Source: an uncultured Clostridia bacterium (GTDB lineage: Bacteria; Bacillota; Clostridia; Christensenellales; CAG-917). From it: DNA of 64,000 bases. This document shows positions 40,633-42,890 of this stretch, one piece after another. Under the pieces are notes generated by a model that was given only the letters and a program-made list of their open reading frames with translations, made no database searches and had not been told where the DNA came from. Each line of letters opens with the position of its first letter. Within the stretch, counting starts at the first letter, position 1. The stretch is from the NCBI GenBank assembly GCA_947625225.1, contig CANQNQ010000001.1, positions 161,900 to 225,899 of the forward strand, written 5' to 3'. A program made the position numbers and the translations under genes.

Positions 40633-40709
40633 GTTTCCGTAGCTCAGCAGGATAGAGCGTCCGCCTCCTAAGCGGAAGGTCATGGGTTCGAATCCCGTCG
40701 GGAACGCCA
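40633..40709 (+). tRNA. tRNA-Arg (CCT anticodon), CCA encoded
   Basis: GTTTCCG-TA-GCTC-AGCAGGAT-AGAGC-G-TCCGC-CTCCTAA-GCGGA-AGGTC-ATGGG-TTCGAAT-CCCGT-CGGGAAC-G-CCA folds as a complete cloverleaf. Confidence 0.95.
40689..40709 (+). repeat. tRNA-3'-end repeat copy A (inside the tRNA)
   Basis: CGAATCCCGTCGGGAACGCCA. Confidence 0.95.
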
Positions 40710-40745
40710 AATGCAATCTAAGTCGAACCTTAGATTGCATTTTTC
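40709..40745 (+). terminator. Hairpin/terminator directly after the tRNA
   Basis: AAATGCAATCTAAG-TCGAAC-CTTAGATTGCATTTTT. Confidence 0.85.
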
Positions 40746-40872
40746 TTTCTTGGATGGGATTCGAACCTGTGCAATTTTTTCTTAAAATTGCACGCAAACT
40801 CCGTTTGCCATGCCCTCCGGTCATGCTGCACGCTCCGCTTCCGCAAACTAGTTTGCTCGCTTCGCTGTTGGG

Positions 40873-40893
40873 CGAATCCCGTCGGGAACGCCA
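40873..40893 (+). repeat. tRNA-3'-end repeat copy B
   Basis: Exact 21-bp CGAATCCCGTCGGGAACGCCA. Confidence 0.95.
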
Positions 40894-40929
40894 ATCCCTG
40901 TCTATCTTGAACCAAGACAGACAGGGATT
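40892..40929 (+). terminator. Hairpin following copy B
   Basis: AATCCCTGTCT-a-TCTTG-aac-CAAGA-c-AGACAGGGATT. Confidence 0.75.
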
Positions 40930-40946
40930 TATATTTTACTCGACGG
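40925..40946 (+). repeat. 22-bp direct repeat, copy 1
   Basis: GGATTTATATTTTACTCGACGG, identical to 41317-41338. Confidence 0.95.
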
Positions 40947-41076
40947 CATTCTCTTGAGAGGCAACGCCGTTGCTCCTCAAGGCTTTGCAAAGCAAAGCGA
41001 ACCCATTCCTTGGCTGACGCTTCGCTCCCGGATGCAAGCATCCCCGCTCCGCTATTACGGCGGCTCTTGCCGCCTA

Positions 41077-41097
41077 CGAATCCCGTCGGGAACGCCA
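41077..41097 (+). repeat. tRNA-3'-end repeat copy C
   Basis: Exact 21-bp CGAATCCCGTCGGGAACGCCA. Confidence 0.95.
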
Positions 41098-41101
41098 GCT
41101 T

Positions 41102-41133
41102 AAAAATGCGCATCTACATGATGTGCGTTTTTG
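41102..41133 (+). terminator. Hairpin following copy C
   Basis: AAAAATGCGCATC-TACAT-GATGTGCGTTTTT. Confidence 0.75.
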
Positions 41134-41316
41134 TTTTACAAAAAAGCACAAAGATGTAATACGCATTTTTGCGCCTCTACCGCGACTTTACCCCACAAAA
41201 TCATTTCATAATTTTGCGGGGACCCCGGGAAAATTTTAACGGCTCATAATATCTGTATCCACAGATATGACTCGCCTAATTTTTGTGCTTGGTGTTGCGC
41301 CTTTGGCGCAGAGGCA

Positions 41317-41338
41317 GGATTTATATTTTACTCGACGG
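41317..41338 (+). repeat. 22-bp direct repeat, copy 2
   Basis: GGATTTATATTTTACTCGACGG, identical to 40925-40946. Confidence 0.95.
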
Positions 41339-41353
41339 GATTATAACCTGTCC

Positions 41354-42214
41354 TCAATCGATTGGATCTTCACACATATGATTTATCGCTGTCGGGGTCA
41401 ATACTTTTGCGCCTGCTCGCATTTGCGCGCGGTTGAGGGCAAATATGGGCGCAAGCTCGTCCGTCGATGCGTTGTACATCACGTAGCGCGATACGTCATA
41501 TTCTGCCGCCTTGTGCATCGCGTGCCTGCTGCCGCTGTCCCCCTCGCCCTTGACGTGGCTGGCGATAAGCGCGACCGCGCGAGAGAACATAGCCTGCAGC
41601 CTGTCCCGCTCTATAAATCGCGCTATCTTTTCCTTGTAACTTTTCGGTTCAGTCGCATATTCGGTGACGACAAGCCCGCCGCTTTTCACGATCTCGTCCA
41701 AGAGCGCCGCGTTTTCGGGCGGATAGATGCTTTCAAATGTCGTTGGTAAAATTGCTATGGTTTTGCCGCCCGCGTCAAGGCAAGCTCTGTGAGCAACGGT
41801 ATCGCAGCCCCGCGCCATGCCGCTGACGATATTGAATTTTTCCTTTACAAGCGCCTCGACAACATTCCTTTCGCGCGCCGAAATGCGCTCGTCGGGAATG
41901 AGCGAGCCGACAACGGCGACATTATGTCCGATGTCGTTCAACATCTTTATATCGCCCTCGTATGCAAGCAAAAACGGCCTTTCGCTAGGTTTGATTTGCT
42001 CGTTGATGTGCGGAAAATCCTCATCAAAACAGCAGACGAGGTTTATCCCGCGCTTCTCAAGATCGGCGCTTGCAGCCTGCGGCATACTTGCGATTTTTTC
42101 AACGTCAAAATAGTTCCGCCAAAAGTCGGAACGCGATTTTATTTCCCCGCATGCCAGGGCGGCGTATAGCTTTTGCGCCAAACGACTGCTCATATATCCT
42201 CTTGCAACATACAT
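41354..42214 (-). CDS. Divergent DprA/Smf-like DNA-processing protein
   Basis: VAVVGSLIPDERISARERNVVEALVKEKFNIVSGMARGCDTVAHRACLDAGGKTIAILPTTFESIYPPENAALLDEIVKSGGLVVTEY. Confidence 0.8.
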   Translation of the reverse strand: MYVARGYMSSRLAQKLYAALACGEIKSRSDFWRNYFDVEKIASMPQAASADLEKRGINLVCCFDEDFPHINEQIKPSERPFLLAYEGDIKMLNDIGHNVAVVGSLIPDERISARERNVVEALVKEKFNIVSGMARGCDTVAHRACLDAGGKTIAILPTTFESIYPPENAALLDEIVKSGGLVVTEYATEPKSYKEKIARFIERDRLQAMFSRAVALIASHVKGEGDSGSRHAMHKAAEYDVSRYVMYNASTDELAPIFALNRAQMRAGAKVLTPTAINHMCEDPID

Positions 42215-42320
42215 TGTATCACCCTTTGTCCACATATTCAATGCGGATTCAAAACAACTTCCTCCACGATCGCTGTTGTATCGGTGGCGGAGGCGTGATA
42301 TAATCTTTGCGGAGGGGCAT

Positions 42321-42890
42321 ATGGAATCAAAACAAAGGTGCAATTTCGGCGAGGGCGCGCGGCAGGTTTCGCAAAAATCGCTGCTGTATCACGACTTGCG
42401 CTGGTGCAAGCCCGAACATCGCGACAACGAGCTGTTCGCCATGCTGGTGCTTGAGGGCATGCAGGCGGGTGTCAGCTGGGATCTGATCCTCAACAAAGAG
42501 GACAATTTCCGCGCGGCATTCGACGGTTTTGACCCGCATACAGTGGCTACTTACGACGCGCAAAAGGTAGAGGAGCTGATGGCAAACAAGGGCATCATCC
42601 GCAACCGCGCAAAGATAAACGCGGCAATAATCAACGCGCGCGCGTTTATCAATATACAGCGGGAGTTCGGCAGTTTCGACGCCTTCATCTGGAGTTTCAC
42701 GGACGGCAAAGTGATAGACCATCGTCTGCGCGACGCCAAGGATATGCCCGCCAAGGACGCGCTGTCCGAACGAGTGAGCGCCGAGCTGAAAAAGCGCGGC
42801 TTCAAATTTGTGGGCGCGACAATAATATATTCCTATCTGCAAGGCATAGGCGTGATCAACGACCATTGCGTATATTGCGATTTCAGATAG
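42321..42890 (+). CDS. tag: DNA-3-methyladenine glycosylase I
   Basis: YHDLRWCKPEHRDNELFAMLVLEGMQAGVSWDLIL; FVGATIIYSYLQGIGVINDHCVYC. Confidence 0.93.
   Translation: MESKQRCNFGEGARQVSQKSLLYHDLRWCKPEHRDNELFAMLVLEGMQAGVSWDLILNKEDNFRAAFDGFDPHTVATYDAQKVEELMANKGIIRNRAKINAAIINARAFINIQREFGSFDAFIWSFTDGKVIDHRLRDAKDMPAKDALSERVSAELKKRGFKFVGATIIYSYLQGIGVINDHCVYCDFR

Follow-up and report, generated by a model that had tools for sequence, protein, structure and literature searches.

Gene-free palindromic cassettes arrayed at the 3′ ends of tRNA and tmRNA genes in Christensenellales

Downstream of tRNA-Arg(CCT) in an uncultured Clostridia bacterium, and of many other tRNA and tmRNA genes in its genome and in related genomes of gut Clostridia, we found arrays of small cassettes. 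Each cassette consists of the 3′ end of the local tRNA or tmRNA (R57 through CCA), usually a terminator-like hairpin, and a complex palindrome. The two outer arms of the palindrome are antisense and sense copies of the T-arm and variable loop of the same tRNA, and the structured inserts at the T-loop position differ: the antisense side has an insert called X, the sense side one called Y. The cassettes found so far are about 80-530 bp long and structured throughout, and none of them contains a gene. No description of such units was found in open-access papers. Judging from this literature search and from their anatomy, the units look like mobile or recombining DNA of a kind not described before.

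The array at tRNA-Arg(CCT)

The window, the whole stretch of 64,000 nucleotides analysed here, has tRNA-Arg(CCT) as its sole tRNA gene (40633-40709; all features of the array are on the plus strand). The last 21 nt of the gene, CGAATCCCGTCGGGAACGCCA, were found exactly at 40689, 40873 and 41077, with spacings of 184 and 204 bp, which confirmed the original prediction of two exact downstream copies (40873-40893, from C56 to CCA, and 41077-41097). No chance recurrence of a 21-mer is expected in 1.5 Mb. The junction point in the T-loop, C56|R57, lies at 40689|40690 in the gene.

Each 3′ end had also been predicted to lead into its own hairpin. This holds for the tRNA itself, which is immediately followed by a terminator-like hairpin (40709-40745), and for the first copy (40893-40929). 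In a terminator scan, the hairpin at 40709-40745 passed and that at 40893-40929 did not; a hairpin much like the latter lies behind tRNA-Arg(ACG) elsewhere in the genome. The third predicted hairpin (41102-41133) is not part of the repeated unit. It belongs to a separate terminal element of about 230 bp (41098-41330) that is common to other arrays and was also found behind the last copy at tRNA-Arg(ACG) and tRNA-Asn. The terminal element holds a palindrome of about 40 bp (about 41187-41227; ACCCCACAAAATCATTTCATAATTTTGCGGGGACCCC) that is dispersed over the genome. Used whole as a query, the element matched its own genome 26 times and each of three relatives more than 50 times, with most matches falling on this palindrome, and it had no match in several other members of the genus.

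The short palindromes that had been noticed in the spacers are real, and they correspond to conserved hairpins of a unit that is present in many genomes. In unit 1, the first hairpin is followed by an antisense T-arm of the local tRNA (40753-40767; GATGGGATTCGAACC, with GAACC at its 3′ end), recognised as an inverted repeat. Next comes the X insert (40768-40808), consisting of two hairpins (40769-40793 and 40794-40808). Copies of the variable loop and the 5′ strand of the T-stem follow at 40809-40825, with antisense CATGCCC at 40809-40815 and sense GGTCATG at 40819-40825. The Y insert (CTGCACGCTCCGCT-hairpin-CGCTTCGCTGTTGGGC, 40826-40873) then leads to the next 3′ end, and both X and Y are supported by covariation. 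Unit 2 spans 40942-41076. It begins with an antisense T-arm with one mismatch (40942-40952; CGACGGCATTC), recognised by sequence and by a match of the covariance model (L199 1856-1970), and it ends with a Y of a second type, GCTGACGC...CGCTATTAC-hairpin-TAC (41013-41076). A further antisense T-arm copy, again an inverted repeat, lies at 41333-41348 and is probably the remnant of another, decayed unit. The antisense T-arm and the antisense and sense variable-loop copies in these spacers were absent from the original prediction.

In unit 1, the conserved stretch of Y is CTGCACGC-hairpin-CGCT(G), followed by the next 3′ end. Across the units, the antisense side closes almost invariably with GAAC, the complement of GTTC in the intact T-loop, and the stretch containing GAAC is mostly without a partner inside the unit. 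Read from the sequence, the unit can be described as an inverted dimer of tRNA positions ~44-66 with the T-loop inserts X on one side and Y on the other. If X and Y were taken out, a near-perfect palindrome of the local T-arm would remain.

In addition, GAACC or TTGAACC occurs in or near the loop of many hairpins behind the 3′ ends (40709-40745, 40893-40929 and related arrays), where it is antisense to GGTTC of the tRNA T-loop. The gene downstream of the array (41354-42343) encodes a DprA-family mediator of single-strand DNA recombination (PF02481), and its position next to the array is probably a coincidence.

Recurrence, gain and loss of the units

In the source genome (G000, 1.52 Mb), the following genes have their own 3′ end repeated exactly downstream: tRNA-Arg(ACG) (three copies), tmRNA, tRNA-Leu, Thr, Lys, Asn, Trp, Met (two copies) and Arg(CCT). 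In addition, tRNA-Ala is followed by an imperfect copy. In the de-duplicated set of this genome, 9 of 42 tRNA and tmRNA genes were followed within 700 bp by an exact 18-nt copy, whereas no gene had such a copy upstream. Similarly, 53 downstream copies and no upstream copy were found over 145 tRNA and tmRNA genes in loci longer than 3 kb, a set that is biased towards units; none of the copies in these scanned loci lay beyond about 650 bp. The junction C56|R57 is common to tRNA-Arg, Ala, Val, Leu, Lys, Asn, Thr, Ser, Met, Glu and tmRNA, and at every one of them the copied 3′ end is that of the gene concerned. The copies start at this point in all classes but one, tRNA-Trp, for which the shared stretch begins a few nucleotides later.

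Relatives of the unit were found with a DNA query in 8 of 20 genomes of the genus, and the exact motif was present in 8 of 43 genomes of the family. A covariance model built from 24 units added members of the genus that the DNA query had missed, other genera, and three genomes of another family of the order, in which the units lie at tRNA-Glu. Furthermore, two surveys of orthologous genes across the family revealed several further unit classes and a tmRNA 3′-end copy in 12 of 29 genomes, with none in the others. A class-wide search with a single exact pattern, which is an insensitive probe, yielded only the source genome and one chance match without a tRNA; thus the group may be confined to this order. 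The core motif had no match in the viral collection searched, and a scan of scattered exact-motif matches in named genera such as Oscillibacter, Lonsdalea, Barnesiella and Stenotrophomonas found no tRNA 3′-end copy. Most of the named records with units belong to rabbit-gut Clostridia MAGs and to Christensenellaceae bacterium Phil10. One contig filed under an Acetatifactor MAG (L124 2178-2420) carries the same tRNA-Leu(GAG) unit as another genome, G017 (L111); this contig is probably misbinned, and otherwise it would point to transfer between orders.

The other tRNA genes with the same unit that had been suggested as a check were therefore found at many loci, in the source genome and in its relatives. 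A one-off local duplication, for which no second locus and neutral spacers had been expected, does not agree with these loci, nor with the covariation of the spacers described below.

The tmRNA gene of G014 is without units, and the sequence directly behind it (GAGGGTAACCGGTTGAACCCC...) is the flank that lies behind the last 3′-end copy in G011 and G000. Thus, units appear or disappear exactly between 3′-end copies. As G000 has the same flank behind its tRNA-Ala array as well, the flank may itself have moved as a module, and the units of G014 may have been lost rather than never present. In some arrays the tandem units are exact; for instance, the tRNA-Lys array has two identical units and one nearly identical unit of 174 bp. 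In other arrays the terminator-like hairpins differ between successive units. Mismatches sit in the distal copy in all three informative arrays. This would fit an entry of new units beside the tRNA, but three arrays are few. The many loci, the fixed junction and the empty site support two earlier proposals, very small elements inserted sequentially at the tRNA and a modular array with the tRNA 3′ end and a swappable hairpin.

The units are rich in hairpins and always lie downstream of a tRNA or tmRNA gene. Both features would suit a role for the host behind its tRNA genes, for instance as hairpins in the DNA that halt transcription or replication forks, or as decoy attachment sites. However, the presence of units at the same gene is patchy between close relatives and their copy number varies, which is ill-suited to a needed function, and we regard such a role as very improbable.

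Several variants of the units were also seen. Some units have a longer X insert of about 200 nt (L042 870-1090, minus strand; L044 1240-1420; unit 2 of L099) with the conserved blocks GCGTTAA, GTAGCGATAAAATTGCGG and TTTTGAGCAGG, and this insert looks like a relative of the terminal element (41098-41330 of the window) in the opposite orientation. A second unit class (L053, L060, L213 and L232), at tRNA-Lys, Asn, Arg and tmRNA, has an antisense T-arm, GGGCGG...CCGCCCCGGC and GCGGAGC before the 3′ end, and is without the Y motif of the first class. The smallest units seen are 80-bp tandem repeats at tRNA-Met (L051 584-765), each closing with the exact 3′ end. A 138-bp tandem repeat without a tRNA 3′-end copy adjoins tRNA genes at the ends of two contigs (L042 1-314 and L051 951-1212).

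The fold and its match to the host tRNA

In an alignment of 31 units, which was fitted to the model and leans towards structure, 90.6% of the cells were paired, compared with only 33-46% in slid controls of the same alignment. There were 190 cells with double changes, against 55 in shuffles and at most 36 with the partner slid, and compensated pairs were found in all five helices. The covariance model proposed as a check on the unit has thus shown that its helices covary and that the spacers are not neutral.

The departures from Watson-Crick pairing in the units comprised 24 G·T and 32 A·C. As a control, 109 tRNAs from these loci had 122 G·T and 8 A·C in their acceptor and T stems. Because G·T is not above A·C on either strand of the units, unlike in the tRNA stems, the fold is kept as DNA and not as RNA. 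The free-energy z-score was -4.9 with RNA and DNA parameters alike and does not discriminate between the two.

These results bear on whether the unit acts at the RNA level, as a structured or guide RNA that resembles bridge RNAs or retro-elements and finds the tRNA gene through its antisense segments. Such an RNA would fit these segments, which extend over the intact target with its GTTC at the junction and almost always keep GAAC, as well as an RNA fold far better than shuffled (z = -4.9), although the DNA fold is equally good. However, G·U is no commoner than A·C on either strand, a terminator-like hairpin stands ahead of unit 1, and a search of Rfam with the region and related loci matched only tRNA, tmRNA and a SAM riboswitch. 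We therefore consider an RNA-level element improbable, and the same three observations speak against the earlier suggestion that the array is a source of tRNA-like or small RNAs.

The arms of the units match their local tRNA. The six nucleotides preceding Y equal the variable-loop sequence of the host tRNA in 38 of 55 units, whereas units permuted among tRNAs gave 4.4 such cases on average and never more than 11 in 1000 trials. Similarly, the antisense T-arm agreed with its own tRNA at 8.98 of 12 positions, against 7.97 in permutations (maximum 8.25). The X inserts of different species are alike when they lie at the same tRNA (1 of 300 permutations was as high), which suggests long residence and rare movement between tRNAs. 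In clustering, the likeness of Y follows neither tRNA nor genome, and an effect of genome on the clustering was tested for X and Y and found for neither.

Possible mechanisms and comparison with known systems

In integrons, attC sites have two inverted pairs of boxes and non-complementary central spacers, and they recombine as folded single strands (PMC2727003). From the anatomy of the units, we tentatively favour, at somewhat less than an even chance, an array of gene-free cassettes in the tRNA T-loop, belonging to a recurrent family and recombining through a folded attC-like single-strand site. A single strand of the palindrome would fold into a double-stranded likeness of the T-arm site of the tRNA, with X and Y bulging out at the crossover point. 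A recombinase would then join the folded site to the real T-loop, as integron integrases do with folded attC and attI. Insertion would install a new tRNA 3′ end and hairpin and shift the old ones downstream, so that the tRNA would stay intact and copies would accumulate. The attC-like model explains the fixed junction, the restored 3′ end, the tandem arrays and the covariation at the DNA level; it also explains the doubled local arms, which are needed to make a double-stranded site from one strand.

The likeness of X between species at the same tRNA counts against this attC-like model. So does the re-matching of the arms at a new tRNA, which is accounted for neither by the model nor by ordinary site-specific recombination. 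It is conceivable, though rather doubtful, that the units represent a new class of site-specific recombination, in which cassettes dock at tRNA and tmRNA T-loops through folded single-stranded DNA and can be re-addressed by copying the T-arm of the target, that is, by taking up inverted and direct copies of the T-arm of another tRNA. To our knowledge, such a target-copying step is found in no described system.

Template switching and correction of palindromes, the main alternative, would account for the local matching more simply than the attC-like model. In this case no dedicated enzyme would be involved: replication accidents at the palindromic T-arm, with snap-back and template switching, would give an inverted T-arm copy. 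Slippage or unequal crossing-over would then multiply the units, and quasi-palindrome correction would maintain perfect hairpins and the match of the arms to the local tRNA. Several observations agree with such an origin, namely that the unit can be read as a fold-back of tRNA positions 44-76, that the pairing departures have no RNA signature, that tandem units are identical in some arrays, that X is inherited with the tRNA, and that the units have no linked recombinase. However, different tRNAs and species have the module order and the Y motif CTGCACGC...CGCTG in common, so homologous X and Y modules had to reach many tRNAs. Furthermore, the same junction nucleotide is used in many tRNAs and tmRNA, and terminator-like hairpins vary within one array, which slippage does not produce. 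On balance, we think it unlikely that replication accidents gave rise to the units.

The candidate recombinase in the attC-like model would be a resident Xer-type tyrosine recombinase or an enzyme supplied in trans. The source genome has two tyrosine recombinases, a Xer-type gene and one further integrase. No integron integrase IntI was found in it, as the scores against TIGR02249 were 63.7 and 54.5 and the cut-off is 265 bits (NCBIfam). One conserved Xer-type gene is common to most members of the genus, and no recombinase linked to the units was found, which also counts against the attC-like model. For instance, in G018, which has units and is 85% complete, the Phage_integrase matches were the near-universal Xer-type gene only. 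A dedicated tyrosine integrase of the unit-bearing genomes was thus not seen. A RAYT or IS200 transposase as the mover was also rejected: the source genome has one RAYT-like gene (NF047646, just below the cut-off; L168 160-921, minus strand), the GGGGACGGGGC palindromes on its flanks differ from the units, and the Y1 transposase is absent from most positive genomes.

That the units work like attC cassettes is a proposal, and we do not claim that they are integrons. Like integron cassettes, they stand in tandem and are inserted next to a fixed site. As in attC, there is a long imperfect palindrome with paired R and L boxes and a non-complementary spacer, here helices 1 and 4 with X and Y between them. 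However, the units have neither genes nor the consensus boxes of attC, their fixed site is any of many tRNA T-loops, and their boxes copy the local tRNA. The consensus of the attC R box at the cut site is GTTRRRY, and it is not kept across the units, some of which end with GTTGGGC or GTTAGGC and others with GTAAGGC, CCTTAC or CGGAGC.

Islands and prophages that target tRNA or tmRNA genes likewise lie inside the gene, supply a new 3′ end and leave the old one downstream, and the units share with them the tRNA 3′-end copy at the far boundary. The units could accordingly be ordinary scars of such islands or phages, defective leftovers that keep an attR copy of the tRNA 3′ end. Such copies are the hallmark of these islands (Islander, PMC4383910), and the source genome does have its one integrase besides the Xer-type gene. 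However, the islands measure kilobases, whereas the units found so far measure about 80-530 bp and hold no integrase or other gene. In addition, units of one family use many tRNAs and show the same covarying structure with inverted local arms at each, which att scars do not have. Already weakened by the covariation and the local matching, an origin as scars has a low probability.

REP/BIME palindromes mobilised by RAYT transposases are also short, gene-free DNA hairpins spread in the genome, but the units are confined to tRNA 3′ ends and the RAYT-like gene of the source genome is flanked by unrelated palindromes. MITEs and short palindromic insertion elements (such as the Rickettsia palindromic elements) are small, structured and non-coding and can sit at RNA genes. 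The units are like them in all these respects; unlike them, the arms of the units copy the target and not the element, and the 3′ end of the target is restored. Structured or guide RNAs differ from the units in the pairing preference of their helices, G·U over A·C, and in belonging to an Rfam family. For integrons, tRNA islands, REP/RAYT and structured RNAs, at least one defining feature of each was tested and found absent from the units.

If the units are mobile, they would be among the smallest site-specific elements known, with little beyond a rebuilt tRNA end, a hairpin and a recombination site, and they would represent integron-like recombination of folded strands outside integrons. If they are not mobile, they clearly record how template switching has acted at tRNA genes in nature. 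In both cases, annotation is affected, since the tRNA 3′-end copies of these genomes are not island boundaries, and several contigs start within such arrays.
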